The notes beneath the pieces were generated by a model, which searched no databases, was not told the DNA's origin, and saw nothing but the letters and a program-made list of their open reading frames with translations. Shown here in pieces: positions 1,727 through 28,475 of a stretch of DNA of 28,475 nt. Location: IMG/VR virus record IMGVR_UViG_3300033141_005242, positions 1-28,475 of that record; one strand, written 5' to 3'. Position 1 is the first letter of the stretch. The number at the start of each line of letters is the position of its first letter. Source of the stretch: a virus. Both the position numbers and the translations under genes were made by a program.

Positions 1727-1762
1727 AGAATTTTTTATCCCTATGATAATAATAATAAGGGG
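1727..1762 (+). promoter_or_regulatory. Repeated intergenic element, copy 1 (putative phage promoter)
   Basis: AGAATTTTTTATCCC followed by TATGATAATAATAATAAGGGG, lying between the amidase stop and the small HTH gene. Here CCC and GGGG extend to TTATCCC and GGGGATAA, which can pair. No TTGACA lies 17 bases before the TATGAT/GATAAT box, so it is not an ordinary sigma70 promoter. Confidence 0.7.
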
Positions 1763-1799: not shown

Positions 1800-1967
1800 A
1801 TGCCAAGGCGAAATTTAACAAAAGCAGAGAGGAGAGAAAGAGCCAAAAAGATTATCTCGCTCTATTATGATCATAACGTGCCACAACACCTCATCGCTCG
1901 ACGATTCGGCGTCTCTAGAGCGCTGGTTTATCAAATCCTGCGGGATGTGAGAAAAAATCACAAATAA
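1800..1967 (+). CDS. Small helix-turn-helix DNA-binding protein
   Basis: A 55-residue gene starting at ATG 1800 with GGAGGG six bases upstream. The protein is basic. Residues 27-48 (VPQHLIARRFGVSRALVYQ onward) form a clear homeodomain-like helix-turn-helix: a helix, the turn at GVS and a recognition helix. Likely a DNA-binding regulator, or a remnant of a resolvase-type HTH. It sits alone between copies 1 and 2 of the repeated promoter-like element, so it is probably a monocistronic unit and could bind that element; that link is speculation. A similar small HTH gene occurs at 25429-25608. Confidence 0.75.
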   Translation: MPRRNLTKAERRERAKKIISLYYDHNVPQHLIARRFGVSRALVYQILRDVRKNHK

Positions 1968-1969
1968 CC

Positions 1970-2005
1970 AGAATTTTTTATCCCTATGATAATAATAATA
2001 AGGGG
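1970..2005 (+). promoter_or_regulatory. Repeated intergenic element, copy 2 (putative phage promoter)
   Basis: AGAATTTTTTATCCC then TATGATAATAATAATAAGGGG, identical in the core to copies 1 and 3. It starts just after the HTH stop codon and ends about 45 bases before the next ATG. Confidence 0.7.
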
Positions 2006-3256: not shown

Positions 3257-3282
3257 AGAATTTTTTATCCCTATGATAATAA
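3257..3282 (+). promoter_or_regulatory. Repeated intergenic element, copy 3 (putative phage promoter)
   Basis: Same core as copies 1 and 2 (AGAATTTTTTATCCC, TATGATAATAATAATAAGGGG). It sits 12 bases after the RadC-like stop and 44 bases before the ligase ATG. An in-frame ATG inside the element is not the ligase start, because a strong ribosome site lies immediately before ATG 3327. Confidence 0.7.
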
Positions 3283-4991: not shown

Positions 4992-5050
4992 AAAAAATTT
5001 TAAATTTTTTTAAGATTTTGCTTGACAAAATGGTTTAAATTTCTTATATT
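4992..5050 (+). promoter_or_regulatory. Sigma70-type promoter with UP-like element before the sigma-like gene
   Basis: TTGACA at 5022-5027, 17-base spacer, TATATT at 5045-5050. Upstream lies an A/T-only stretch including a perfect 9-bp inverted repeat (AAAAAATTT 4992-5000 / AAATTTTTT 5002-5010), placed like an UP element. The predicted transcription start (about 5057) falls almost on the AGGAGG ribosome site, so the leader would be very short. It is the best host-type promoter in the window. Confidence 0.85.
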
Positions 5051-5071
5051 ATAAGTAGGAGGCAAGAGAAA

Positions 5072-5659
5072 ATGAAAGAACAAACCGAAACCAAAGAGCA
5101 AAGATATTTGGCAATCGCTGAGAGAGTGGCAAGGAAACAGAGAAGTGATAGGATTAGAGAGTGGGACCTAGATGAACTGATTCATGAGGCATATCTAGGG
5201 ATAAAGGAAGCCGAAGAAAGAGTAGGGAAGGAGATAGATGAGAGGCTAGCGATAAGGGCAGCGAGCTTGAAGGTAATAAGGTTCAAGCTGAAAATGAGAA
5301 GTGTACTGAGCCTGCCAGAGGGATCGACATGGAGAGAACACAAGGCAGGAAGAATAGAGATAGGAAGAGAGATGGTGGGATACAAAGAGTTAAAGAAAGG
5401 TGAAAGGACATGGATAGAAAAAGAGAGAAAGAGAGATCTAAAGATGGTAGCGAAAAAGGTAGAGGAAAAGTTAGGGATGATAGAGAGAATGGTAATGAAA
5501 GCGATATTGAGAGATGCCGGAATCATAGAGATAGTGGAAGTGATAGAGAGAATGGGAGTTGAAAAGCCAAAGACAGCGGCCTATGGAGCTGCGAAGAGAA
5601 TCGAAGAGGCATGGATAGAAGAAGGAGTGACAGGGTTGGAGTGGCACAGAGGGCAATAA
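5072..5659 (+). CDS. Probable phage RNA polymerase sigma factor (region 2 + region 4)
   Basis: 195 residues, very rich in Lys, Glu and Arg. Residues about 30-75 (WDLDELIHEAYLGIKEAEE and the basic helix after it) match the sigma region 2 pattern DLxQEAxLGL..A. Residues about 125-185 contain a helical pair ending in a plausible region 4 HTH (EVIERMGVEKPKTAAYGAAKRI). It would direct the host core polymerase to phage promoters. ATG 5072 has AGGAGG nine bases upstream. It has its own consensus host promoter, whereas eight other units carry a different repeated element, which fits an early regulator. Region 4 is weaker than region 2, so a sigma-like or HTH protein of other function is possible. Confidence 0.6.
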   Translation: MKEQTETKEQRYLAIAERVARKQRSDRIREWDLDELIHEAYLGIKEAEERVGKEIDERLAIRAASLKVIRFKLKMRSVLSLPEGSTWREHKAGRIEIGREMVGYKELKKGERTWIEKERKRDLKMVAKKVEEKLGMIERMVMKAILRDAGIIEIVEVIERMGVEKPKTAAYGAAKRIEEAWIEEGVTGLEWHRGQ

Positions 5660-5692
5660 AAAGAGAGAAAGAAAAAGAGAGAAAAAGAGAGA
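5660..5692 (+). repeat. Polypurine low-complexity tract
   Basis: After the sigma-like stop, an uninterrupted purine run made of irregular GAGAAA/AAAGAGAG units continues to about 5692, then purine-rich sequence continues to 5720. It has no coding role that I can see. It could be a slippage-prone relic, a triplex-forming or unwinding tract, or a spacer before the structured element. Confidence 0.6.
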
Positions 5693-5715
5693 AAGGTGAA
5701 GGGAGATAAGAACAG

Positions 5716-5817
5716 AGGGACGGGGGTTAAAACAGGCACGTGACTGGGATCCGCCTCGCAAGCGAGAAGTGGAGCAAGCTCCTCGGATCCACCCCCGTGT
5801 CTCCGTTCCTATCCCTC
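5716..5817 (+). ncRNA. Structured element, domain A: nested stem with two side hairpins
   Basis: An outer 8-bp stem ACGGGGGT (5720-5727) / ACCCCCGT (5791-5798) encloses a second stem formed by two GGATCC copies (5747-5752 and 5785-5790). Inside that lie two hairpins with the same CAAG loop: CTCG-CAAG-CGAG (5755-5766) and GGAG-CAAG-CTCC (5771-5782). The drawing is a three-way junction on a long stem. It is GC-rich compared with its flanks and has no plausible gene. It could be a non-coding RNA, a cis-acting leader of the primase gene, or a replication origin. No known RNA family was recognised. Confidence 0.55.
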
Positions 5818-5858
5818 TTGATAGAAAAAAGCAGATGGAGTCAAAAGGAATGCGCACT

Positions 5859-5957
5859 AGAGGTGGCAGATCTCAGGTCTGGGGGCTGCCCGTCGTGACG
5901 AGGCTAGTTTTGGAGGGATCCATCCAAAACAAGTCTTGGGTAGTCCCATCCACCTCT
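5859..5957 (+). ncRNA. Structured element, domain B: closed multi-hairpin unit
   Basis: The ends pair over 8 bp (AGAGGTGG 5859-5866 / CCACCTCT 5950-5957). Inside are CAGATC-TCA-GGTCTG (6 bp with one G-U, 5868-5882), CGTC-GT-GACG (5891-5900), TTTTGGA / TCCAAAA (5908-5914 / 5923-5929, 8-base loop containing GGATCC) and TGGG-TAGT-CCCA (about 5937-5948). At 99 bases it looks tRNA-like, but it lacks a T-arm consensus and usable anticodon geometry. With domain A it fills the 319-bp gap between sigma and primase genes. The primase ribosome site starts 9 bases after the closing stem. Confidence 0.5.
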
Positions 5958-5978
5958 TAACATATAAAGGAGCCACAA

Positions 5979-6737
5979 GTGAAAGAACTAGTAATAAAAT
6001 GTCCTTTCTGCGGTGATCACCCGCGCGGCAGTCATTATCATTTGCACATAAACCCCCAGAAGGGGGTGTTTTTTTGTTTCTACTGCGGTCGCGGAGGGAC
6101 GCTGGACTACCTTACTAGTCGTGTACCGTCAATTAAACATTTAATCAATTTACCTCGCAGCGACCGCAGACCCTCTCAGCAGGTTTTTTCATTTTTTCCT
6201 CTCTTGCAAGGTGGTCGTGAGTCTCCCTACATCAGACAGATTTTCTCTTACCTCCTCAAGCGCTTGACTGCCGCCCATATTGAGGAATACGGCGTCTCCG
6301 TATCTCCTCAACTACCACATCGTGTTGTATTTCCACACGATAGAGGTTTCGACTACTTTTGGGCGGCACGAGCAACTGTCTCGATGAGACCTAAATGGCT
6401 CTTTCCTCCAAAGAGGCTCACGGCCGCTTCTCCTTCTTCAGCAGTCTGGGGAATAGATAGGATCCGAGACGGCGAAGAAATCTGGATAGCTGAAGGGATT
6501 TTTGATGCAATCAGTGTTAAAGGTGTAGCCATTTTTGGGAAAACGCCTCATCCTATTCAAATAAGACAAATTCTATCAAAGGCTCCTAGAAGGATTGTTA
6601 TCGCCTTCGATAGAGATGCTGTTGACAGTTCGGAAAAACTACAACGGCAACTGAGAGGTCTTGTTCCAACCTCTATCATTCTACCGCCAAACAAACACAA
6701 GGACTTTGGCGAACTTCTGCCGGAGGGCTTTAGATGA
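5979..6737 (+). CDS. DNA primase (zinc finger + TOPRIM)
   Basis: 252 residues from GTG 5979 with AAAGGAG upstream; the frame gives the zinc finger at once (Cys8, Cys11, Cys33, Cys36: CPFC ... CFYC). The TOPRIM domain is seen as IWIAEGIFDAI (Glu172) and IVIAFDRDA (Asp211, Asp213). It makes RNA primers for the replisome. The size fits a stand-alone phage primase half like T7 gp4 without the helicase; a separate DnaB-like helicase is at 9459. Its coding strand is pyrimidine-rich, unlike the purine-rich genes before it. It overlaps the next gene by ATGA. Confidence 0.92.
   Translation: MKELVIKCPFCGDHPRGSHYHLHINPQKGVFFCFYCGRGGTLDYLTSRVPSIKHLINLPRSDRRPSQQVFSFFPLLQGGRESPYIRQIFSYLLKRLTAAHIEEYGVSVSPQLPHRVVFPHDRGFDYFWAARATVSMRPKWLFPPKRLTAASPSSAVWGIDRIRDGEEIWIAEGIFDAISVKGVAIFGKTPHPIQIRQILSKAPRRIVIAFDRDAVDSSEKLQRQLRGLVPTSIILPPNKHKDFGELLPEGFR
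6052..6075 (+). terminator. Intrinsic-terminator-like hairpin inside the primase gene
   Basis: ACCCCC-AGAA-GGGGGT (6052-6067), a perfect 6-bp GC-rich stem with a tetraloop, is followed by G and seven Ts (6069-6075). On sequence alone it is the best rho-independent terminator in the window, yet it lies at codons 25-32 of the primase. The encoded residues (PQKGVFFCF) fit the zinc finger, so the structure could be accidental or could attenuate early transcripts. Confidence 0.45.
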
Positions 6738-8134
6738 TCAAAATACGAATGGGAAACATCTTCAGCAAGGTCGAGATGGCTGACTCCAGGAAGGAAGAGA
6801 ATGCTCTACGCAAGGAGCTTACCTTCCCTGTCCCTAATTTCTGGTTTATGCCTTCGTACAGAAAGCGGATATGGAACGGAATGTATTCATTTTACAATGA
6901 CTATGCCAAAACCTTCCCAACAGGGTTGTTGACGCTGATTAAAGATAAGTTTGAAATTGTCTTGATAGACAATCGAAAAAAACCTGAAGTGGAAGTGGTG
7001 GAGCCTGCCTTGCACGGGATTGAACTTCGTGACTATCAGATGGAAGCGATAAATCAAGCGCTAGAATTAGAGAGGTGTATAATTCAGGCTCCGACGAATG
7101 GAGGAAAAACAGAATGTGCGGCAGGGGTCATCTCAGCACTTCAAGGTGCCAGAACGCTATGGATCACTCACCGTGGGAACCTTCTCTATCAAACACGAGA
7201 CAGGCTGGTAAAAAGACTAGGTGTTGAAGTAGGAGTTGTCCACCGCGACACACTCGATATCAAGGAGGTTACTGTTGGAATGGTCAACACACTCTATAAC
7301 CGCCTTTATTCAAAGAATAAGGAAACAAAGTCTTTCTTCCGCAACTGGCTGAAAAACTCGGTTGACGTTTTGATAATTGACGAGGCTCATCATACATCTG
7401 CTACAACATGGTTTTCTGTAGCAAAACTATGTGATGCTTATTTCAGAATAGGACTATCTGCGACACCCTTAATGAGACATGAAATTCAGAACTTGCGTCT
7501 GATTGCTATGACTGGAAATGTGATCGAGACTGTAACCAACAAAGAATTGATCAGAAGAGGTGTTTCAGCCAGACCAAAAATAATGATTGTTAAAAATAGA
7601 ATTCACACTTCTTTTACACCTCGAAACTGGGGGAGTTCGTATAGAGTGGGAATTGAGAGAAATCGAGCCAGAAATTCCCTTATTGAAAAAATTGTTCGTT
7701 TCCATAGTAGAAAAAAAGAGCCAATCCTTATCCTCGTTAACACACTTATGCATGCCCACAATCTAAAGAGAAGTCTGCAACAAATTCGGTGTGTGCTGGT
7801 TTCAGGATCCACCCCTCCAGAAGAACGTAATGTCTGGCTGAAGAAGTTGGAAGAGGGTGAAATCTCCGCAATCATCGCCACCCCGTTGTTTGATGAAGGT
7901 GCTGACGTTCCAAATATTCGGGTCCTCATCCTCGCAAGCGGTGGAAAGAGTCATCTACGACTCTTGCAAAGAATTGGACGCGGACTGAGACGAAAACCGA
8001 GCGGTCTTAATGAAATAAAAATATACGATTTTGCTGATAAAGGTGATAAATATTTGGAAGCACACTCACATCACAGATTTGAACTATACAAGAAAGAGGG
8101 GTTCGATGTAATCCCTCTGGAAATTTCTAGATAG
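6734..8134 (+). CDS. Superfamily 2 DNA helicase, UvsW/ERCC3-like
   Basis: 466 residues. An N-terminal domain of about 90 residues precedes a two-domain SF2 core: Q-motif-like ELRDYQMEAI, Walker A APTNGGKT (119-126), DEAH in IIDEAHH (216-219), motif III GLSATP, and motif VI LQRIGRGLRR. The closest role is T4 UvsW, which remodels branched DNA (fork regression, Holliday junction branch migration, R-loop removal). That fits the T4-like recombination set further on. The start overlaps the primase stop (ATGA), so the two are translationally coupled. Confidence 0.88.
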   Translation: MIKIRMGNIFSKVEMADSRKEENALRKELTFPVPNFWFMPSYRKRIWNGMYSFYNDYAKTFPTGLLTLIKDKFEIVLIDNRKKPEVEVVEPALHGIELRDYQMEAINQALELERCIIQAPTNGGKTECAAGVISALQGARTLWITHRGNLLYQTRDRLVKRLGVEVGVVHRDTLDIKEVTVGMVNTLYNRLYSKNKETKSFFRNWLKNSVDVLIIDEAHHTSATTWFSVAKLCDAYFRIGLSATPLMRHEIQNLRLIAMTGNVIETVTNKELIRRGVSARPKIMIVKNRIHTSFTPRNWGSSYRVGIERNRARNSLIEKIVRFHSRKKEPILILVNTLMHAHNLKRSLQQIRCVLVSGSTPPEERNVWLKKLEEGEISAIIATPLFDEGADVPNIRVLILASGGKSHLRLLQRIGRGLRRKPSGLNEIKIYDFADKGDKYLEAHSHHRFELYKKEGFDVIPLEISR

Positions 8135-8146
8135 GAGATAATAAAA

Positions 8147-8557
8147 ATGAAGGAAGGAATTGTTTTCCCGCCTGGTTTTATTCCTGCCACTAGAAGACTA
8201 AAGAGTTTGGCCAAGGCTCCTGTTCCTGTTGTGACTCTTTCTCCCTCCGGGTTTCTCATTTTAAACACCAAAGCAACAGAGCTATTATGTGGAAAAGATG
8301 GCTCTAATACAGCAGTTGTTCTGGCCTATAATCCTAAGACTAGCGTCCTTGCTTTGAAGGGTGTCGAAAGGAAGTTCTCAACTGATGCTTATGCAATTAA
8401 TACTACAGGCCACCATCGCCAATACGCCACTGTTCGCATCGGGAAAAGTCTTCAGAACATCTGGAGGCTTCCAATGGACAAACGGCGTTGCAAAACCGAG
8501 TGGGATAGTGAAAACAAGATCCTCTACGTCCACGTTAGAGAACCGATCGCTGTGTAG
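8147..8557 (+). CDS. Protein of unknown function
   Basis: 136 residues from an ATG with TAGGAGA upstream, 12 bases after the helicase stop. The pattern suggests mostly beta strands (VPVVTLSPSGFLILN, ATVRIGKSLQNIW, KILYVHVREPI), with no Cys-based metal site and no membrane segment. I do not recognise the family. It is the last gene of the primase-helicase unit, ending at the first inverted repeat of the following gap; the stop codon TAG is part of that repeat. Confidence 0.75.
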   Translation: MKEGIVFPPGFIPATRRLKSLAKAPVPVVTLSPSGFLILNTKATELLCGKDGSNTAVVLAYNPKTSVLALKGVERKFSTDAYAINTTGHHRQYATVRIGKSLQNIWRLPMDKRRCKTEWDSENKILYVHVREPIAV

Positions 8558-8583
8558 ATATTAATACTTAGTATTAATATCTA
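8555..8583. repeat. Perfect 14-bp inverted repeat, one-base centre
   Basis: TAGATATTAATACT (8555-8568), T, then AGTATTAATATCTA (8570-8583). It is A/T-rich and starts at the stop codon of the preceding gene. A dyad this long and tight suggests a dimeric protein-binding site (operator or origin element) rather than a terminator, as no T run follows. Confidence 0.85.
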
Positions 8584-8620
8584 CTGTATTTAAGAATAAT
8601 AAGATAAATATAAAGAAGTT

Positions 8621-9458: not shown

Positions 9459-10841
9459 ATGAAGGAACCTGTTTTCATTGAGACATCAGTAATCCCGCTT
9501 GAGTTGCAGCGGGAGGTTTTGGCAGGTCTGTTGAGAGACGCCAGATTTGCATCACGCTTTATCCTCAGCTTGAGCGAAGATAATTTTGAAAATCCTGTTC
9601 ACAGGATAATTTTCTCAATAGCTAGGAAGTTTTACATTGAGCAACTGAGGATCGTTCCAAAAAGGATTCTGGAACGTGAGTTGTCGAATTTTTTAAGCGA
9701 GAACGAATCCAGGTTGCCGTATCCATACAGGTTGTTCTGGGAAGAGTTGAGACATCTCTATTCAATCGCAATTGATCAGATAAGAGATTATCTAGTGGAG
9801 AAGTTGACAAACTTTTTGATAAAGGGTCAACTAACACGACTTTGTGAGAGAGCTTTAGAGGAAGCAAAGAAGGAGGAGCCCCGTCTCGAGAGAATTGACA
9901 ACGAAGTCTCCGCCCTGTATTCATTGCGATCCGGTGTTGTAATAAGAGAGCGAGGAGAGTTTCTTCTTCAGCAGGCTTCATCAAGGTTTCGCAGAGTAGC
10001 TAGTGAGGATAAGGTTCCGACAGGGCTGCAGACGTGCGATACAATTTTAGGTGGAGGTTTGGGTAAAGGCGAGGTGGGTGTTGTGTTAGCGCCAACAGGC
10101 TATGGCAAGTCTTTCTGGCTTGTGACGGTGGGAGCAAATGCTGTCCGAAGACAGAAGAGAGTCATTCATATTACTCTTGAGATGTCGAGGGAGAAGGTCG
10201 TAGAGCGTTATGAGACTCACTTGACACGAATTAAGAAAGAGGAGTTGCTTGATAGCGAGAACGATGTTATTAGGAAGTTATTAAGACTCCGCAGACTCTT
10301 GTCACCTGCGGATGTTTACGTGATTCATTTTCCAATGAGATCAATCACGGTAGAAGAACTGAGAGTAGTCATCAATCAGATATCGTTCGTTGAAGAATTT
10401 TTTCCCGATCTGATAATAATAGATTATGGGGATGTGATCAAACCAAGGGAAAGTCGTAATGCTCAGCGTTATGAGCTGCTCGGTGAAATTTATGAAAAGC
10501 TTGTGGCTCTAGCTCACGAACTGAATGTTCCGCTATGGACAGGATCGCAGGCACGACGGATCTCGGTTAATAAAGAGTTTGTGACAGTAGCTGATATGGC
10601 AGAATCCTTTGCCAAAGCACAGGTGGCAGACGTGATTATAGCTATTTGTCGAACCCGAGAGGAGGAAATGAATCATAGAGGACGATTCTATTTCGCGAAA
10701 GTAAGGGACAACCCCGGGAAGCAAGTTGTTCCCTTTGTTGACAAGTTTGAGATAGCTAGGTTCGAAGAGATCCCGGGTAGTGAAGTTGCATATGCCGAGC
10801 CTGAAACTGTTGAGTTTTCTGGAGAATCATCCGAAGATTAG
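9459..10841 (+). CDS. Replicative DNA helicase, DnaB-like
   Basis: 460 residues from ATG 9459 (AAAGGGGAAAG upstream; an earlier in-frame GTG at 9417 has no good site). The N-terminal helical domain (LQREVLAGLLRDARF, then ENPVHRIIFSIAR) is DnaB-like. The RecA-like core has Walker A APTGYGKS (211-218), Walker B LIIIDYGDVI and a SQARR motif. It unwinds the fork 5' to 3' as a hexamer and would work with the separate primase at 5979. The stop codon is directly followed by the ribosome site of the polymerase gene. Confidence 0.93.
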   Translation: MKEPVFIETSVIPLELQREVLAGLLRDARFASRFILSLSEDNFENPVHRIIFSIARKFYIEQLRIVPKRILERELSNFLSENESRLPYPYRLFWEELRHLYSIAIDQIRDYLVEKLTNFLIKGQLTRLCERALEEAKKEEPRLERIDNEVSALYSLRSGVVIRERGEFLLQQASSRFRRVASEDKVPTGLQTCDTILGGGLGKGEVGVVLAPTGYGKSFWLVTVGANAVRRQKRVIHITLEMSREKVVERYETHLTRIKKEELLDSENDVIRKLLRLRRLLSPADVYVIHFPMRSITVEELRVVINQISFVEEFFPDLIIIDYGDVIKPRESRNAQRYELLGEIYEKLVALAHELNVPLWTGSQARRISVNKEFVTVADMAESFAKAQVADVIIAICRTREEEMNHRGRFYFAKVRDNPGKQVVPFVDKFEIARFEEIPGSEVAYAEPETVEFSGESSED

Positions 10842-10849
10842 GAGGTTAA

Positions 10850-13168
10850 ATGGCTAAAAAAACAACTCAATTAGGATGTAAAAAATGCCCTTTGCGGGGA
10901 AGAAAGGTGGTACGACCTGAAGGGAATCCTGAAACGGCACTTTTTTGGGTAGTTGGGCAGGCACCTGGTGTTGAAGAGGAAGAAAAAGGACGTCCCTTCA
11001 TCGGAAGAGGAACTAAAGTCCTATGGAAGGAGTTAGAGCGTTTAGGGATCACCAGACGTGATGTTTATATTACAAACATCTGCAAATGCTTTCCTGGGCG
11101 GCGGGAAGACGGTAGCGGCGATGTTGCGCCCAATAAGCCTATGCGGGACAACTGCGTTGCCGAATTTTCAGATGAGTGGAAGAAGATGAAGGGAAAGATA
11201 GTATTGCTGTTGGGAAATGTAGCTGCCTTACAACTTGCAGGAGTGCGTATTAGGAGTAGTCGGGGAAACGTAATTCAAAAAGATGGCGTAAGATTTTTTC
11301 CGACCTTTCACCCTGCCTACATTTCGAGAAACAAAGGGTCAATCTACACCTGGAGACGGGATCTTACGCTCCTGGTAAAGTTGGCTAGACGAAGAGGAAG
11401 AAAGACAAAGAAGGCAACCTACAGTTTGTGCGAGACCCCCTCTGCTGTCAATGAGGCTCTCGGGTATTTGAAGTCATCAGGTCGTTGGGTTTCGTTGGAC
11501 ATTGAAACGACGATGATAGATCCCTTTAAGCCGGGCGCCGAGATCGTGACAATAGCTTTGTCTGATGGCATCAGAACTTTCGTGATTGACTGGCAGGCGT
11601 TAGGTGAAACCGTTGACAGGGGCATGCGAGATTTTCTTGAGTCGGATGTACCGAAAGTTATTCAAAATATGCAGTTTGAGTTGTTGTGGTTAAAGGTTAA
11701 GAAAGGGATTCTCGTAAGAAATGTTGTTTTTGATACAATGATAGCGCAGTTCCTTCTGGATGAGAGCACCTCAACAAATATAGGATTGAAGCAGATGGTT
11801 TGGCGCTACCTCCCTGAGTATGGAGGTTACGAAGTAGATGTTGATCATTCAGACATTTCTGGAATGGATAGGAAACAGCTCTATCTTTACAATGCTACCG
11901 ACGCCTTTGTCACTGCAAAGATAGCTGAGATACAAAAGCTCCAGATAGAGGATAAAAAGCTAGATTTTCTGCTGTCGGGCGTGATCATTCCAGCGGCTTA
12001 TGCTCTTTCTGAGATGGAGGAGAAGGGATTTCTGGTTGATCTCGAGGAGGTTAAGAGACGTCAGTTACAGCTGGTGGAAAGGATTAAGTCTCTTGAGACG
12101 GAAATACTTAATGATGCAACGGTTAAAAGGGTTCAGGATTTCAAAATCAATTCTCCGCACTCGCTTCGTGAGCTGTTTTTTGATGTGATGAAAATCCAGC
12201 CTAAAAGACACACCGATTCCGGCCTACCCTCTGCTGACAAAATGCTATTGGAGAGTTTGGCAAGCGAAGGAGTGAAGGTTGCCGATAAGATAAGGAACTA
12301 CAAACAAATAGTTAAGTTGAAAAGAACTTACTATGATAATTTAGTTAAGGCAACGACGGAGACTGGAGATAATTTTATCAGACCGCGTTATAACATATGC
12401 TCATCACGAGGAGGGCGTCCAGCGTGCGGTCGTCCTAACCTACAGAATCTTCCCTACGAGGTGAGGGAAGTCTTCATTTCGAGATTTCCTGGAGGGAAGT
12501 TGATTGAGATGGATTTTAAGCAGATTGAAATGAGAGTGATGGCAATAGAATCAGGCGATAAGCATCTCATCGAGATGTTTCAGAAAGGCGAGGATCCTCA
12601 CGGTTCAGTGGCGGCTAGGGTTTATGATGTTAAACCCGAGGACGTGACAAAAGAGATGCGGAGAAGGGCAAAGACGCTCAATTTTGGTATTCTTTATGGA
12701 ATGTCGTGGCGGACGTTGGCGGATAGAGAGAGGTGGAGTCAGGATTTTGCAAGGTCATTCTACAACAGGTTCTTCCGACGCTTTCCTGGAATTAAACGTT
12801 GGCAAGAACAACAGAGACAAAAACGAATCATAAGGTCGCTTTTTGGGAGGTTCTGGGATCTGTCTGGGTATGATGGCGAAGAGCGAGTAAAAAGGTCATA
12901 TAATTTTCCAATTCAGAGTGCGGCGGTTGATGTTACGATGTTCACAATGGGTGCAATATGGGAGTTGAAAAACGAGATGAAGCTAAAGACCGCTATGGTT
13001 GCAGAGGTACATGATTCGATAGTTTTTGATGCTCCTCCCGAAGAGGTTGAAACAGTGATTGCGTTGATCAAAGAGGTAGTGGAGAACTTGCCAAAGGTTT
13101 TTCCGTGGATGATTGTTCCAATGGCTGTGGATATTGAGGTGAAAGACAGGTGGGGAGAAAAAATTTGA
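10850..13168 (+). CDS. Uracil-DNA glycosylase / 3'-5' exonuclease / family A DNA polymerase fusion
   Basis: 772 residues in three parts. Residues 1-180 are a UDG-superfamily domain of the family 4 type: Cys10, Cys13, Cys80 and Cys102 placed for a 4Fe-4S cluster, VVGQAPGVEEEEKGRPFIGR and FHPAYISRN. In family 4 the first motif usually reads GEAPG; here Gln replaces Glu. Residues about 210-370 are a DnaQ-like exonuclease (LDIET with Asp217 and Glu219, Exo II IQNMQFE, Exo III YNATDAF). The rest is a PolA domain: motif A MDFKQIEMR, motif B RRAKTLNFGILYG, motif C EVHDS (Asp722). It is the phage replicative polymerase, with template uracil removal or detection built in. Confidence 0.95.
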   Translation: MAKKTTQLGCKKCPLRGRKVVRPEGNPETALFWVVGQAPGVEEEEKGRPFIGRGTKVLWKELERLGITRRDVYITNICKCFPGRREDGSGDVAPNKPMRDNCVAEFSDEWKKMKGKIVLLLGNVAALQLAGVRIRSSRGNVIQKDGVRFFPTFHPAYISRNKGSIYTWRRDLTLLVKLARRRGRKTKKATYSLCETPSAVNEALGYLKSSGRWVSLDIETTMIDPFKPGAEIVTIALSDGIRTFVIDWQALGETVDRGMRDFLESDVPKVIQNMQFELLWLKVKKGILVRNVVFDTMIAQFLLDESTSTNIGLKQMVWRYLPEYGGYEVDVDHSDISGMDRKQLYLYNATDAFVTAKIAEIQKLQIEDKKLDFLLSGVIIPAAYALSEMEEKGFLVDLEEVKRRQLQLVERIKSLETEILNDATVKRVQDFKINSPHSLRELFFDVMKIQPKRHTDSGLPSADKMLLESLASEGVKVADKIRNYKQIVKLKRTYYDNLVKATTETGDNFIRPRYNICSSRGGRPACGRPNLQNLPYEVREVFISRFPGGKLIEMDFKQIEMRVMAIESGDKHLIEMFQKGEDPHGSVAARVYDVKPEDVTKEMRRRAKTLNFGILYGMSWRTLADRERWSQDFARSFYNRFFRRFPGIKRWQEQQRQKRIIRSLFGRFWDLSGYDGEERVKRSYNFPIQSAAVDVTMFTMGAIWELKNEMKLKTAMVAEVHDSIVFDAPPEEVETVIALIKEVVENLPKVFPWMIVPMAVDIEVKDRWGEKI

Positions 13169-13175
13169 CAAATCC

Positions 13176-13211
13176 AGAATTTTTTGTTGCCCTGATAATA
13201 AGTATAGTAAG
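13176..13211 (+). promoter_or_regulatory. Repeated intergenic element, copy 4 (divergent)
   Basis: AGAATTTTTTGTTGCCC then TGATAATAAGTATAGTAAG. It keeps the T run, CCC and TGATAATAA but has lost the GGGG end and gained bases before CCC. It sits just after the polymerase stop, 22 bases before the ATG of the recombination operon. The divergence shows which parts are conserved. Confidence 0.6.
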
Positions 13212-19467: not shown

Positions 19468-20124
19468 ATGAAGAGAAAAACAAGACAGCATTCTACAAGG
19501 ATAGTCATGATCCCAATTGACGAAATTAAGTTGATTAAAAATCCCTATGTCCATCCAGAACGACAGATAGAGGAGTTGATGAAGGCTATTGAGGTTTATG
19601 GTGTTACGAATCCTGTTGGGATCTCGAGACATGACAAAACCCTCCTTCTTGGTTATGCTCGGTATGAGGCGCACAAGAGACTGGGTAGAAGAGAGATCCC
19701 CGCACGCCTTCTGGATTTTGATCCAGAAGAATACTATGCTGTGATGATAAGTGATAACCGCATTTCTGAGTTTTCGTCTCAAAACATTACCGAGATGATT
19801 AGGATCATTGAGGAAGAATTGGGCAGAGCTGATCCAGACTCACTAATCATTGCTTATACTGAGGATGAGTTGGCATCACTAAAATCATGGCAAGACGAAC
19901 AGGAGCAGATGTCAATTGATATTGATAGCATAATTGACAAGCCACAAAGCGCACCTGTCAGGGATGCGGAAGAAGTAGTTGAGATAGCAGTCCGTGTGCC
20001 GCTGTCTGTGTGGGAAGATGACGCCACACGCAACTTGGTTAATGCCTCCTTGGCAGACCTCAAAAACAAAGTCTCAGATGTGAGAGTGATGGCACCAAAG
20101 ATAATAAAACCGCGTCGTCGCTAG
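19468..20124 (+). CDS. ParB/Srx-domain protein
   Basis: 218 residues from ATG 19468 (GGAG six bases upstream; ATG 19462 abuts the site and is too close). The N-terminal part has the ParB pattern: NPYVHPERQIEELMKAIEVYG, then VTNPVGI, LLLGYARYEAHKRLGRREIPARLL (GxxR type). A middle acidic linker and a basic tail PKIIKPRRR follow. ParB-like phage proteins may segregate, act as nucleases or bind DNA; which applies here is not visible. Last gene of the recombination operon; its stop TAG forms part of repeated element copy 5. Confidence 0.88.
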   Translation: MKRKTRQHSTRIVMIPIDEIKLIKNPYVHPERQIEELMKAIEVYGVTNPVGISRHDKTLLLGYARYEAHKRLGRREIPARLLDFDPEEYYAVMISDNRISEFSSQNITEMIRIIEEELGRADPDSLIIAYTEDELASLKSWQDEQEQMSIDIDSIIDKPQSAPVRDAEEVVEIAVRVPLSVWEDDATRNLVNASLADLKNKVSDVRVMAPKIIKPRRR

Positions 20125-20159
20125 AATTTTTTATCCCTGTGATAATAATAATATTGGGA
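20123..20159 (+). promoter_or_regulatory. Repeated intergenic element, copy 5 (putative phage promoter)
   Basis: AGAATTTTTTATCCC then TGTGATAATAATAATATTGGG; the first A is in the stop codon of the ParB-like gene. GGGAGG at its end doubles as the ribosome site of the next gene. Confidence 0.7.
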
Positions 20160-20783: not shown

Positions 20784-21125
20784 ATGGAAGAAGTAAGAAT
20801 CGAGGGAGAACCAACAGCTTTTGTTGTTTTAGCTATCTACAGAAGAGTTCGAAAGGAGCTCGAGAAGCTTGCTAAAGGTGACTCTTCTTGGGATGAAATT
20901 CTGATGATGGTCACTTCGCTAGTTTTTGGTATGGAGATTTTTGGATCAGTCCTTTTGTCATCCGATTTGGATGCATTAGTAGAAAAAGCTGAAGATCATT
21001 TTGGCAAGGATAGGATTGAGGAAACTGTAAAGAGTGTTGTAGCTAATTATGCCTCCATACGAAACGTAGCTGAGGCTGAATCCATACTGATCGATTTTGA
21101 TCCACGGAAAAATTTATCCCACTGA
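20784..21125 (+). CDS. Small protein of unknown function
   Basis: 113 residues from ATG 20784 (TAGGAG upstream), right behind the preceding gene. It looks helical, with an acidic end. The last codons and the TGA stop lie inside repeated element copy 6 (ATCCCACTGA), so the C-terminal residues KNLSH are read from the regulatory element. No homologue recognised. Confidence 0.7.
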   Translation: MEEVRIEGEPTAFVVLAIYRRVRKELEKLAKGDSSWDEILMMVTSLVFGMEIFGSVLLSSDLDALVEKAEDHFGKDRIEETVKSVVANYASIRNVAEAESILIDFDPRKNLSH

Positions 21126-21142
21126 TAATAATAATAAGGGGA
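21108..21142 (+). promoter_or_regulatory. Repeated intergenic element, copy 6, before the ubiquitin-like operon
   Basis: AAAAATTTATCCC then ACTGATAATAATAATAAGGGG. It is followed by GAGAGATGGAGGAG, which recurs after copy 8. It overlaps the end of the previous gene and sits 29 bases before the SprT-like gene, so it would start the five-gene unit 21172-24833. Confidence 0.7.
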
Positions 21143-21573: not shown

Positions 21574-21602
21574 TATCGAAATAAGAATCAATGGAGGTAA
21601 AA

Positions 21603-21875
21603 ATGTCTGAGAATGGAAACAATTCTGTACAGGCAAGAGGACGGACAACCCCAGAGAGTACTAGACAGGAAAGTCGCGGCGTACGCCTGATTGAATTTGG
21701 CAGACTTCCTCAAGTGGTATTCTTGGAGAGAGAGACAACGGTTGGCGAACTAAAGAGACAAGGATACTTCAGCGACGATGTGGAGATTTTTGTTAATTCA
21801 AATCCAGCAAACGACGAAACCATCGTCAGGAACGGCGATGCCGTCGTGGGCGTGCAGTCTATTAAGGGTGCTTAG
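21603..21875 (+). CDS. Ubiquitin-like (beta-grasp) modifier protein
   Basis: 90 residues from ATG 21603 (GGAGGT upstream; the ATG at 21591 lies before that site). After a disordered 26-residue N-terminus rich in Ser, Asn and Arg, VRLIEFGRLPQVVFLERETT, VGELKRQGY, EIFVNSNPA and DAVVGVQSIKGA match the strand-strand-helix-strand-strand order of MoaD/ThiS-type folds. The C-terminus is SIKGA, not GG: a Gly89 exposed by removal of Ala90 would be a usable conjugation tail. The neighbours (E2-like, E1, JAMM) make it the likely modifier. Identity to ubiquitin is not detectable by eye; the fold is inferred. Confidence 0.7.
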   Translation: MSENGNNSVQARGRTTPESTRQESRGVRLIEFGRLPQVVFLERETTVGELKRQGYFSDDVEIFVNSNPANDETIVRNGDAVVGVQSIKGA

Positions 21876-21894
21876 AACTCATTAGGAGGGCAAA

Positions 21895-23322
21895 ATGGCT
21901 GGTTGGCTAACAGTGAGGATAGTGGAAGAGGAGGGTGGCACGGCCTATCCTCTTCCCGGAGCCCTCCTTAGGTCTCTGTCGTTGGATTTAATCATCGTTC
22001 CGGCGCGCGATGAAAATCATCCATCAGATTACGTCTTGTTTCTCAACACCGCGTCTGTAATGGACGATGTTGAGCAGTCGGCAGAATTTGCTCAGTTTCG
22101 GAGCGAGGTTGAATCATACTGTAGAGAGTTGGGTGTGAGAGTTCGTGTTGAGACAGTCATTTTTATTTCTCATGGCGAAATCGCGCCCGCTGCCACTAGG
22201 TTGGTACCGACGCAGCCTGATTCGGGTGTAGAAATAGAAACTGAGAGTTCACAACATCAGCGAAGAGATGAGATTAGAGCAGAGTATGAAGGTCTCCGTC
22301 GGATGATGGACTTTGTCAGAAGGAACCAACCCCGCGGTGTGTCTGACGGCAGAGCTATTGAAGTTGCTCGTCATGTGGCGAGGAGTGGTCAAACACAGAG
22401 AGTAGCGCAAGATGCGGCAGTCCTCGAAGCCGCTGTGAGGGAAGGACTTGAACGTCCGAAGAATCTGGACAACAATATTGAAAAGTTGGCTGCTATCCTA
22501 GAAAGGTGGAATTTATGTGCTAAGACGCTGGAGCAGGAAGTCGAGAATCTTTCCCGCGAAAGAACTCGCAGGATAAGAGTGATCAATGAGGGCATTCTTG
22601 TTTGGCAGTTCTATAAGATGTATGCAGGTGCTATCAGAGAAATATCAGCTAAACCAGATGCAGGAGTTGATAGAGAGTGTATTCGGTTTCTTCGGCATCT
22701 TGGTTCAGATTTCAACACAGATGGTTTGATACAGCTTCGAGATGAAATTGTGTCTAAAGTGGTTGAGAACGAGGTTGAGTCGAAGAAAAATCTTGAGAGG
22801 GTTATCAATGAACTGGTTCTGTGTGAACGAAGGATCCGCGAGGTGAACGAGGAGATAGCCGCAGTTGCGAGGAGGTCGAAAGATTGGGCGCGAGAGAAAG
22901 CGAAAAACGAACTTGAAATTATATCTAAAATGCCCTATGTGGAAAAATTCGAGGTCTCGGTTTCGCCGCCCCAGCTGGTTGTCTTCTACGGGAATGCTCA
23001 TATACGGTGGGGAGGCAATGACTTCGAGATAGGCAAGTACATTTTGAAGATAGATTTGGATCAGACAGGAAGCGGCGATACCAAACTTCGCCTTCGTCAT
23101 GCGGAGCTGCCTGAACACGTGAGTCAGCAGCATCCACATGTTAATGGGAGTTATGTTTGTTGGGGGAACATCCGTAAAGGAATAACGAGTTTATATGCAG
23201 AATTTTCGTTGGCTATGCTAGTGACTGTGGTTTGGAAGTTTTTGAATAGCTACACTTATGGAGATAGTTTCATCAAGATTGAAAATTTTGTAGAAAAATT
23301 GAATGAAATGAGAGGGAGGTAA
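21895..23322 (+). CDS. E2-like protein: long coiled coil plus C-terminal UBC-like domain
   Basis: 475 residues from ATG 21895 (AGGAGGG upstream). Residues about 1-100 form an unidentified alpha-beta domain, 110-345 are mainly charged helix with likely coiled coils, and 350-475 have the E2 order: VFYGNAHIRWGG strand pairs, then HPHVNGSYVCWGN with Cys422 in the place of the E2 active Cys (after HPxV). This His413-Pro-His415-Val-x-x-x-x-x-Cys422 arrangement resembles prokaryotic E2-like families. It would carry the modifier from the E1 to its target. The E2 assignment is by pattern and operon context; the N-terminal part might choose the substrate. Confidence 0.7.
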   Translation: MAGWLTVRIVEEEGGTAYPLPGALLRSLSLDLIIVPARDENHPSDYVLFLNTASVMDDVEQSAEFAQFRSEVESYCRELGVRVRVETVIFISHGEIAPAATRLVPTQPDSGVEIETESSQHQRRDEIRAEYEGLRRMMDFVRRNQPRGVSDGRAIEVARHVARSGQTQRVAQDAAVLEAAVREGLERPKNLDNNIEKLAAILERWNLCAKTLEQEVENLSRERTRRIRVINEGILVWQFYKMYAGAIREISAKPDAGVDRECIRFLRHLGSDFNTDGLIQLRDEIVSKVVENEVESKKNLERVINELVLCERRIREVNEEIAAVARRSKDWAREKAKNELEIISKMPYVEKFEVSVSPPQLVVFYGNAHIRWGGNDFEIGKYILKIDLDQTGSGDTKLRLRHAELPEHVSQQHPHVNGSYVCWGNIRKGITSLYAEFSLAMLVTVVWKFLNSYTYGDSFIKIENFVEKLNEMRGR

Positions 23323-23327
23323 CAATT

Positions 23328-23996
23328 ATGGATTATCAAAGACAGCTAGATATTTTTAACCCGGCCGAATTCGAAAATGAGAAGGTAAACATAGTAGGTT
23401 GCGGAGGAATAGGATCGTTTGCAGCAGTTGCTGTTGCCAAAATGGGACTTAGCTTATCCTTGTGGGATGGTGATGTTGTTGAGGATCACAATGTTCCCAA
23501 TCAATTCTTTCCACATAAAGCGGTTGGCATGAATAAAGCTGAAGCAGTTGCGAGGCTCGTGAAGGCGTTTTCCGATGTAAATGTTGACGCACACGCAAAG
23601 ATGTGGGAAGGCGAAGAACTGACAGGTATCGTCGTAAGTGCCGTTGATTCGATGGCTGGCAGACGTTCTCTTTGGGAAGAGGTCAAGACGTCACCAAACG
23701 TTCCGCTTTTCATAGATGGCAGGATAGGCGGGGAATTTGTCCGAGTCATATCAGTCAGGCCTGTCAATGACGCCTTCGTTTTTGGTTGGTATGAAGGGAC
23801 GTTGATTGATGATGAAGACGCAGTTGAATTTCCTTGCACAGCGAGGGCAGTTATATATGTTGGTTTCCAAGTTGCGGCAACGATAACTGCAATTATCAAG
23901 CAATTTCTTGTGACAGGCAAACTATCCTGGTACGACATCAATTATAGCATGAGTGATTTTAATGTCGCCACTAATCTGGCGGCTGACACAATATAA
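23328..23996 (+). CDS. E1/ThiF-type activating enzyme
   Basis: 222 residues. The Rossmann ATP site is VGCGGIGSF (from residue 23), DGD at 47-49, then DHNVPNQFFPHKAVGMNKAEA, all diagnostic of E1/ThiF/MoeB enzymes. VSAVDSMAGRR is the second substrate-adenylation element. Cys170 in EFPCTARA is the place of the catalytic Cys in JAB-associated prokaryotic E1s. No CxxC zinc pairs are seen. It would adenylate the Ubl C-terminus and pass it to a thioester. It lies between the E2-like and JAMM genes, 5 bases after the former. Confidence 0.92.
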   Translation: MDYQRQLDIFNPAEFENEKVNIVGCGGIGSFAAVAVAKMGLSLSLWDGDVVEDHNVPNQFFPHKAVGMNKAEAVARLVKAFSDVNVDAHAKMWEGEELTGIVVSAVDSMAGRRSLWEEVKTSPNVPLFIDGRIGGEFVRVISVRPVNDAFVFGWYEGTLIDDEDAVEFPCTARAVIYVGFQVAATITAIIKQFLVTGKLSWYDINYSMSDFNVATNLAADTI

Positions 23997-24008
23997 ATGG
24001 AGGAAAAC

Positions 24009-24833
24009 ATGAAAATTAAACTCAAATCGCAATTCCCTCATTATGAGGTGAAGATCTCTAGGAAAGAATACGACAAGATGATGTTTTTGGCACGTTTAGC
24101 CCAACCTTTTGAGGTTCAAGTGCTAGCTGATGTGGGGTTCGAGGACAATGTCTTCTATATCTCAAAGATCCATCTTATCAAACAACGTGTTAGTCCCTCT
24201 ACGACAGAGTTTGATACCGCTTCATTGGCGGACTTCCTGCTGAATTCGGAACATCCAGAGAGGATACACGGTTGGATTCATTGTCATGTTAATATGGGAA
24301 CTTTTTGGTCTGGTGTGGATGAACAGAATATCCAAAGTCTTGTTGAGACAATGGGTTGGGTAGTTAGCATTGTATTCACCTTGGATGGGCATATGACTGC
24401 GAGGTTGGATGTGAAGGTTGATGTCAAACCTGCACTAGGTCGCACGATTGAGTTGCCCCAATCTATCCTTTCTTTCGACGGGATTCGTTGTGAGGTGGAG
24501 GATGTCTTATCAGATAAAGAAAGACAGGAACTTGAAAAACTCTTTGAGCAGACGGTTTGCGCATCTCGACCTCAATTTAGTGAACACACTGGTATTCACA
24601 CCTACGGAGGCCTACAGCTATTTGATACCCCTGAAGGCAATGATGATGTTGAAGAGGATAACATCGATAGTGAAGAGTTTGATGATGGTGGTGAAGGCCT
24701 GACGATTTGCTCGACCTGTGCGCACGAGATTCGTGGAGGGGCCTTTTGTAGAGCAGGGAGGGATATGTTTCTAGCCTCGAGAGATGGGTGTTGCGAGGCT
24801 TGGGTTCCTAATGATGATGTTAGAAAGGTCTAG
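24009..24833 (+). CDS. JAB/JAMM metalloisopeptidase with Cys-rich tail
   Basis: 274 residues from ATG 24009 (GGAGG five bases upstream, overlapping the earlier ATG at 23997). Zinc site: Glu35, then His91-x-His93, Ser101 and Asp104 in HCHVNMGTFWSGVD, a perfect HxH-x7-SxxD. An acidic linker (about 210-228) leads to a Cys-rich end (CSTC, C, CC, about residues 234-262), probably a treble-clef or ribbon zinc site. JAMM enzymes in such operons trim the Ubl or remove it from targets. Last gene of the operon; its stop is inside repeated element copy 7. Confidence 0.9.
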   Translation: MKIKLKSQFPHYEVKISRKEYDKMMFLARLAQPFEVQVLADVGFEDNVFYISKIHLIKQRVSPSTTEFDTASLADFLLNSEHPERIHGWIHCHVNMGTFWSGVDEQNIQSLVETMGWVVSIVFTLDGHMTARLDVKVDVKPALGRTIELPQSILSFDGIRCEVEDVLSDKERQELEKLFEQTVCASRPQFSEHTGIHTYGGLQLFDTPEGNDDVEEDNIDSEEFDDGGEGLTICSTCAHEIRGGAFCRAGRDMFLASRDGCCEAWVPNDDVRKV

Positions 24834-24867
24834 AATTTTTTATCCCTGTGATAATAACAATGAGGGG
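24832..24867 (+). promoter_or_regulatory. Repeated intergenic element, copy 7 (putative phage promoter)
   Basis: AGAATTTTTTATCCC then TGTGATAATAACAATGAGGGG. The core base AAC replaces AAT. The following leader has GAGAT...ATCTC which can form a small hairpin before the AAAGGAGG ribosome site. Confidence 0.7.
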
Positions 24868-25612: not shown

Positions 25613-25649
25613 AGAATTTTTTATCCCACTGATAATAATAATAAGGGGA
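25613..25649 (+). promoter_or_regulatory. Repeated intergenic element, copy 8 (putative phage promoter)
   Basis: AGAATTTTTTATCCC then ACTGATAATAATAATAAGGGG, the same ACTGATAAT variant as copy 6, and the same leader GAGAGATGGAGGAG after it. The SLOG gene starts 29 bases further on. Confidence 0.7.
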
Positions 25650-26052: not shown

Positions 26053-26397
26053 ATGGAAAAATTATTAAACTTTCAAGCGGCTGAGTTTAAAAAGGGGCTC
26101 AATTTCTTGGTCGTAAAATATGACAAGGTTGTTGATCATCTAAGAGTTGGGGGCGTCACCTTCATCAAAGGTTGGAACGGCCTAGCATGGATCGAGAAAA
26201 TTTATATCTGCGCCTTGAGTGACATCCCAGATGAGGTTTTTAAAAATGAGGCAGATCCGAGATGTCGAACACTGAAGGGACTAATTGAAGTGCTCTCAAA
26301 GGAGGTGTGCCCCGAGATAAAAGATCTGCTTGAGTCTGGATATTTAGGATTCAAGGTAGCCTGCATTGGCTATCGGCTCTTTAAGCCATACGAGTAA
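26053..26397 (+). CDS. Protein of unknown function
   Basis: 114 residues from ATG 26053 (AAGGATGGGG upstream; in-frame TTG 26035 and GTG 26038 overlap the SLOG end and are less likely). Alpha-beta pattern, mixed charge, two separated Cys. No known motif. It follows the SLOG gene closely and so is likely co-transcribed from copy 8. Confidence 0.7.
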   Translation: MEKLLNFQAAEFKKGLNFLVVKYDKVVDHLRVGGVTFIKGWNGLAWIEKIYICALSDIPDEVFKNEADPRCRTLKGLIEVLSKEVCPEIKDLLESGYLGFKVACIGYRLFKPYE

Positions 26398-26404
26398 GGG
26401 GTAT

Positions 26405-26544
26405 GGAAATTTGGTTCAGTATTGGCATTTATAGGATAGCATATTTTTTTGAGAGTGTAAAGAAAAGGAGAATCGGAAATCAGATTCAGGGTTGGCACTT
26501 ATAACATTAGATATTTTAATGAGATTGTCAAGGAGAAATCATGA
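26405..26544 (+). repeat. Two tandem imperfect 70-bp repeats in the 143-bp gap
   Basis: Copy 1 is 26405-26474 and copy 2 is 26475-26544. Both begin GGAAAT and share TTCAG, TTGGCA, TTATA, ATATTTT and TGAGA in order. Copy 2 ends with the start codon region of the next gene. Translated in frame, the copies give similar peptides (EIWFSIGIYRIAYFFESVKK and EIRFRVGTYNIRYFNEIVKE). Copy 1 has ATG at 26403 with a poor ribosome site; copy 2 has an AAGGAG site but TCG in place of ATG. It is either a decayed duplicated small gene or a duplicated regulatory leader. Confidence 0.7.
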
Positions 26545-28288: not shown

Positions 28289-28475
28289 AGAGATGACAGC
28301 GGAAGAGGTCAAGGAGTTCGCAAGCGACTGGGGTAGAGCCAAAAATTTTGTATGTGAGTGTGGGGCGAGGCCATTTGAAGGTGGGTATGATGTATGGAGA
28401 TGGAATGGCGAATGTTGGGAGCATTATCATGGCTATCCCATAGGTCATGTGCCAACTATTTATAAACCATTGGAT
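28281..28475 (+). CDS. Start of an unknown protein, cut by the window end
   Basis: GTG 28281 with GGGAGG upstream opens a frame that stays open to the last base (65 codons). The protein begins with a charged helix, then CECG, another Cys and three His residues (EHYHGY, GH), so a metal-binding fold is possible. It shares the CxCG start motif with the preceding gene product. No family recognised. Confidence 0.6.

Follow-up and report, generated by a model that had tools for sequence, protein, structure and literature searches.

The stretch of DNA analysed here (henceforth the window) is the IMG/VR virus record IMGVR_UViG_3300033141_005242, taken from position 1 to position 28,475 and thus 28,475 bases long. 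It contains an ATG-initiated open reading frame for a 195-residue protein, P0001, followed by primase and SF2 helicase genes in the same operon (Table 1). The initial annotation had placed this gene behind a TTGACA-17-TATATT promoter of the host type with an A/T-rich tract resembling an UP element, and both features are present directly ahead of it. Among the sigma70-type matches of the window, the promoter ranks first and alone reaches 11 of 12 positions, and every remaining plus-strand match of 10/12 falls within an assigned gene. The description of this site as the only clear host promoter is therefore accurate for the window, but it does not extend to the relatives considered below, one of which (G001) carries a second copy at 2285. 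The coding strand of the sigma gene region (positions 5001-6000) is also extremely purine-rich, with a GC skew of 0.41 and an AT skew of 0.38, the latter far exceeding that of the remainder of the window.

Table 1. Features of the window discussed in the text (window positions, with strand and basis or remark).
Feature	Position	Strand	Basis or remark
UP-like A/T-rich tract 5' of the host-type promoter	4992..5021 (about 4992-5020)	+	sequence
TTGACA-17-TATATT, sigma70/sigmaA-type host promoter ahead of the sigma gene	5022..5050	+	11/12 match; same in G001 and L003
Sigma ORF P0001: predicted phage sigma factor, diverged, with a region 2 and a putative region 4	5072..5659	+	orthologues, PHROG/Pfam matches of orthologues, fold, ranking
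Primase, next gene of the sigma operon	5979..6737	+	weak Toprim/CHC2 matches; conserved sigma-primase neighbourhood
SF2 helicase of the sigma operon	6734..8134	+	tblastn matches in four relatives
Element copy 1 (GAA-N14-GATAATA), before HTH gene 1800	1728..1751	+	
Element copy 2, before gene 2051	1971..1994	+	
Element copy 3, before DNA ligase (start about 3327)	3258..3281	+	also before the G001 ligase (4844)
Element copy 4, before 13233-13512-SSB-RecA	13177..13200	+	corresponding sites G003 23180, G001 31869
Element copy 5, before gene 20164	20124..20147	+	
Element copy 6, before SprT-like gene 21172 and the ubiquitin-like operon	21107..21130	+	
Element copy 7, before gene 24848 (true start probably about 24890)	24833..24856	+	
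Element copy 8, before gene 25679	25614..25637	+	
Weak element-like site AGATAATA	8120..8143	+	PWM score 20.4; doubtful
Weaker element-like copy inside dnaB	10395..10418	+	455 nt before polA
Ubiquitin-like operon: Ubl (21591), 475-aa protein (21895), E1/ThiF (23328), JAB-like (23997)	21591..24833	+	

Knowing that the initial annotation had read a region 2-like segment and a possible region 4 in P0001, and had named the lack of a sigma domain in a profile search as the outcome that would speak against it, we searched the protein against family profiles. Searched alone, P0001 matched nothing at E<=10 in Pfam, PHROGs, NCBIfam or the PDB, and Pfam offered no region-4 match, Sigma70_r4_2 included. 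Literally, then, the profile search of P0001 by itself found no sigma domain. This is not decisive, because two annotated Herelleviridae sigmas, those of Listeria P61 and Staphylococcus MSA6, likewise have no Pfam sigma match in the same kind of scan. The two-part reading was instead recovered through relatives and a structural model.

Two relatives, L002 and L003, were reached via PolA, and a search of their records yielded orthologues of P0001 at 25-37% identity; further orthologues came from the orthologue alignment together with the neighbouring primase. In all, orthologues were found in records G001 to G006, and since G003 and G004 share the same sigma, as do G005 and G006, they represent five distinct phages including the window. 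One of these orthologues, P0002, matches PHROG 1740 ('RNA polymerase sigma factor') with an E-value of 1.7e-5 over residues 4-176, which is nearly its full length; as a yardstick, the established sigma SPO1 gp34 scores worse on the same family (E 0.01). Matches to Pfam Sigma70_r2 were weak and under the curated cut-off for P0002 (E 0.026) and for the G003 orthologue (E 0.041, its sole Pfam match), and when Sigma70_r2 was searched record by record it found the sigma ORF in G002, G003 and G004 with E-values of 1.4e-4 to 1.4e-3.

A column-shuffle profile test that favoured bacterial sigmas (z 5.5-11.6) was set aside, and because its null breaks helix periodicity we used a ranking of all 341 proteins of the five phages by their match to the region-2 core of E. 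coli sigma. The five orthologues took places 1, 2, 3, 4 and 6, each coming first in its own phage. The region 2 core of the sigma70 superfamily (2.1-2.4) is thus recognisable in the family, weakly but consistently, and all orthologues keep a region-2 helix that bears the sigma core motif. Aligning the five-sequence alignment with E. coli and SPO1-type sigmas by hhalign gave a probability below 12%, collinear only in places, and hmmsearch against the PDB returned spurious matches and no sigma. The family alignment found no relative in GTDB genomes, and tblastn with three of the family members found no match in 50,697 phage records. P0001, P0002, P0003 and the L007 and L012 orthologues also failed to match PHROG 1025, the gp34 family, whose known members do match.

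Predicted structure points in the same direction. AlphaFold2 of P0001 without an alignment was poor, with one 50-residue helix, and was discarded. A model built with four orthologues is mediocre (pLDDT 70, pTM 0.48) and shows three helices, a linker carrying a short helix and then four helices, an arrangement consistent with two domains. Foldseek gave no match to this model with an E-value below 1. In a VIA-align comparison with 268 chains, most of the 26 best are sigma factors, the first being E. coli sigmaE (RpoE), which aligns over residues 3-187 with the highest Z of 7.5. Residues 111-188, the putative region 4, align to region 4 of many sigma structures (about 70 residues at roughly 2.7-3.3 A, Z<8), and this half is the only part of P0001 that aligns well as a single domain. 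With Z values that are middling, we take the predicted fold as support for, and not proof of, a sigma fold. Taken through the orthologues and the fold, the sigma homology of the family is supported. Family profiles alone miss sigma factors of this kind; synteny and promoter conservation find them.

The host-type promoter is conserved along with the gene. It stands ahead of the sigma gene or its operon in G001, G002, G004 and G006, which are all the relatives with upstream sequence. In G001, TTGACA-17-TATATT lies immediately 5' of the sigma gene, at 9858; in L003 the promoter, at 473, heads an operon of one gene, SprT, sigma and primase, and its surroundings (443-528) share 75% DNA identity with window positions 4992-5080. 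G006 has TTGACA-17-TATAAT one gene ahead of sigma, and L008 (G004) has TTGACA and an A/T tract immediately 5' of it. A/T tracts resembling that of the window accompany the promoter in L003, G001 and L008. The gene neighbourhood is similarly stable: sigma adjoins the primase on its upstream side in G002, G005 and G006, one small gene separates the two in G003/G004, and in G001 sigma lies near a polX-type gene of the sort that also precedes it in the window.

Eight other units of the window were said to use a different element, and this claim stood up to counting. The 56-nt copies lie at 1719, 1962, 3249, 13168, 20115, 21098, 24824 and 25605; allowing <=3 mismatches, TTTTTTATCCCNNTGATAAT has 8 matches where shuffled sequences lead one to expect 0.07, and all copies are on the coding strand and 5' of a gene start. 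We ruled out that the element is an extended -10 host promoter, as the TG is misplaced in most copies. Of the two weaker sites in Table 1, the one at 8120 is doubted as a promoter for gene 8147, whose ATG comes only 4 nt past its -10, while the copy inside dnaB at 10395 may reflect chance coding of a Walker B-like strand.

Is this element shared by the sigma-bearing relatives? A repeat search in G001 recovered tGAAAC...TGACAATACTTAT, with a layout identical to that of the window element. In the form GAA-N13-TGAYAAT it has 9, 8, 2 and 5 sites in G000, G001, G002 and G003, all on the coding strand, against an expectation of <=0.6 per genome for both strands. These 24 sites in four sigma-bearing phages all have a spacer of 13, and each of the other spacers from 6 to 23 gave 0-5 sites. 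By contrast with these phages, 17 distant control loci (306 kb), in which the family profile finds no sigma orthologue, have no peak at spacer 13. G006 uses the variant GAA-N14-TATAATA (4 sites versus 0.05 expected); this places the -10 hexamer at [G/T]A[C/T]AAT, and the G003 box reads GTGA[A/C] (10 sites). All five phages keep 14 nt between the GAA box and the -10 hexamer, which puts the box about 4 nt nearer to the -10 than the matching portion of TTGACA would lie in a promoter with a 17-nt spacer. The exact window element has no match in IMG/VR because the relatives use other letters. Judged by sequence conservation, the element is a shared putative promoter class, GAA-14-[G/T]A[C/T]AAT, kept at one spacing and on the coding strand in five phages.

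It is very improbable that the element works instead at the level of RNA, as a leader that forms a hairpin or a translation signal. The window element does have a CCC...GGG able to pair, but this pair is absent from the copy at 13177 and from the relatives, where the conserved parts are the GAA box and the -10 at their fixed spacing; moreover, the ribosome-binding site of G003 starts at about position 31 of the site, directly after the -10, which leaves little room for a leader.

In the ubiquitin-like operon, the E1/ThiF gene matches ThiF (PF00899, E 4.5e-15), whereas the JAB-like gene was assigned by motif reading and has no Pfam match. Homologues of the operon occur in G001, G003 and G006, so that the element precedes it in four of the four distinct phages that hold it: immediately 5' of the Ubl gene in these relatives (at 40729, 36374 and 22333, respectively) and through SprT in the window. 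The placement of a non-host element ahead of this operon, which had been noted for the window, is therefore conserved. The same holds for sites before the ligase and the SSB region (Table 1), and polA has an element at G002 6685 and G006 10278 and, one gene earlier, at G001 28156. The structural genes of G001 (portal, protease and capsid) all lie past its last element site, and the class accordingly looks middle rather than late.

The proposal that host polymerase makes sigma and the replication genes together fared less evenly. A host-type promoter does stand before sigma, but in the relatives the element also occurs within the replication block, before the homologues of 8147 and 8707 and before polA, and the window has its copy in dnaB. 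Replication genes are thus partly under the element in relatives, and there is no clean host-driven early set. Among the replication genes themselves, DNA polymerase A of the window (10850-13168) has a long N-terminal domain that, on our reading of the sequence, resembles family 4 uracil-DNA glycosylase, and the G001 homologues of SF2 helicase, DnaB and SbcC carry intein-like insertions (L002 2425-5343, 6867-9455 and 17230-20163).

Based on these results, we regard as probable a programme that leads from a host promoter through an early phage sigma to the element promoters of middle genes. Host RNA polymerase with its main sigma would make P0001 early, along with the primase and helicase, from TTGACA-17-TATATT. 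P0001 would be a diverged sigma of ECF size, with region 2 at about residues 8-78 and region 4 at about residues 111-188, that binds the host core polymerase and steers it to promoters in which a [G/T]A[C/T]AAT(A) -10 is preceded, at about 14 nt, by a GAA box. This would switch on a middle set comprising DNA ligase, SSB/RecA and repair genes, the ubiquitin-like operon and small genes. We infer core binding, recognition of the element by P0001 and the early-to-middle timing; the tie between sigma and element, in particular, is drawn from their co-conservation.

With sigma and element tied by co-conservation, there is a small chance, slighter than that of the T4-like reading below, that P0001 is indeed a sigma and that the element is read by an alternative sigma of the host or by a different phage regulator, the two being kept together by lineage. 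The -10 letters fit such a reader in that they do not track the sigma tree: we found no co-variation between the -10 letter and the tree. Against it, a bipartite, non-palindromic, promoter-like element with fixed spacing is present in every distinct sigma-bearing phage and shows no peak in relatives without the sigma, and in none of the five phages does any protein match the sigma region-2 core better than the member of the P0001 family.

Two-step schemes of this kind are known from SPO1, T4 and phiEco32/7-11; to our knowledge, neither the promoter class nor the sigma family described here has a known match. In SPO1 (gp28, gp33/gp34), the host sigma makes a phage sigma early, which opens the next gene class. 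Our phages resemble SPO1 and the Herelleviridae in having a phage sigma of about 200 aa among replication genes, and the annotated phage relatives of the window primase belong to that family. They differ in that sigma precedes the primase instead of following RecA, in the promoter, and in a sigma that falls outside PHROG 1025 and is without a tblastn match in the phage records searched.

With phiEco32 gp36 and 7-11 gp47 the likeness is a phage sigma whose own promoters are repeated ahead of phage genes, and sequence search detects no relation between those proteins and ours. The late promoters of 7-11 are bipartite, GTAAtg-16-aCTA (PMC8948821). The promoter sequence here is different, the boxes are closer together, and the targets are of middle type (replication, ligase, Ubl) and not structural genes. 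An earlier computational promoter prediction for 7-11 (PMC4331800) was replaced by a different promoter found experimentally (PMC8948821). The case made here is stronger than that prediction, since five phages share the element.

ECF sigmas (group 4, such as E. coli RpoE) span about 170-200 aa and consist of regions 2 and 4 only; the P0001 family, at about 175-195 aa and with a predicted make-up of these two regions, is alike in both respects. ECF sigmas also have an upstream box containing GAA; RpoE is, as described above, the top fold match. Assuming that P0001 reads the element, GAA would be 14 nt from the -10 and not about 16-17 nt as for ECF sigmas, the box being about 4-5 nt closer here. 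In addition, an S-[IL]-P motif that follows region 2.4 is, by our own reading, similar to the R-I-P found in group 1-3 sigmas.

T4 middle promoters, in which a MotA box at -30 lies close to a host-like -10, have a similar layout, with an upstream box near a -10 of the host kind. They suggest a different division of labour, namely sigma appropriation, with the host sigma reading the -10 and P0001 acting as an activator, its region-4-like helix-turn-helix bound to the GAA box near -29 so as to hold the host polymerase there. The -10 is indeed host-like, fully so in G006 (TATAAT), the GAA box at about 14 nt is nearer than a normal -35 and close to the MotA position, and the region-4 half of P0001 is the one that aligns well by itself. 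We nevertheless consider this arrangement unlikely: all orthologues retain the region-2 helix bearing the sigma core motif, and G000-G003 begin the -10 with a G, a base that host sigma does not prefer, which implies another reader of the -10. P0001 is, besides, sigma-like in two domains and not MotA-like.

If P0001 is the sigma that reads the element, the programme is a testable one for a phage lineage known only from metagenomes, and the sigma/promoter pair, present in several diverged versions, could reveal how regions 2 and 4 tolerate altered spacing. That the Ubl operon is grouped with DNA ligase and repair genes in one regulatory class offers a clue to its timing in infection. More tentatively, and with rather less confidence than we give the programme itself, a new primase-linked sigma family might read a short-spaced promoter (GAA 14 nt from the -10) and thereby time Ubl conjugation as a middle function throughout the lineage.

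Several further features of these genomes may be regulatory. The first gene under an element copy in the window (1800-1967) encodes a 55-aa HTH protein that weakly matches a PHROG annotated as 'late transcriptional activator' (E 3.6e-4), which makes it a candidate for the following step of the cascade. A third promoter-like class, GTTGACAAYnGnAAT, has no clear -10 and occurs at about 53880 and 61092 in G001 and about 54280 in G003; lying ahead of portal or protease genes, these sites are candidate late promoters. The structural-gene region of G001 also has paired repeats TTTCACTCATAACCTGGCGG about 70 nt apart (56251 and 56321, 57005 and 57074, 60231 and 60301). In the window, a gap without the element (26397-26541) holds the near-duplicate pair TTGGCATTTATAGGATAGCATATTTT / TTGGCACTTATAACATTAGATATTTT, a candidate promoter or operator pair, and the gap before the 8707/DnaB genes holds a perfect 14-bp inverted repeat (GTAGATATTAATAC..., 8554-8584) that is terminator- or operator-like.

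Rfam and tRNA scans returned nothing relevant, and no credible Rfam match was found for a 78-nt noncoding block downstream of the sigma gene (5717-5803). This block is 97% identical to L003 864-940, in two phages whose proteins share about 45% identity, and the exact core of it occurs in one other viral contig only. It has a multi-branched predicted fold (DNA z-score -3.2) and is possibly an origin, a packaging signal or an RNA.
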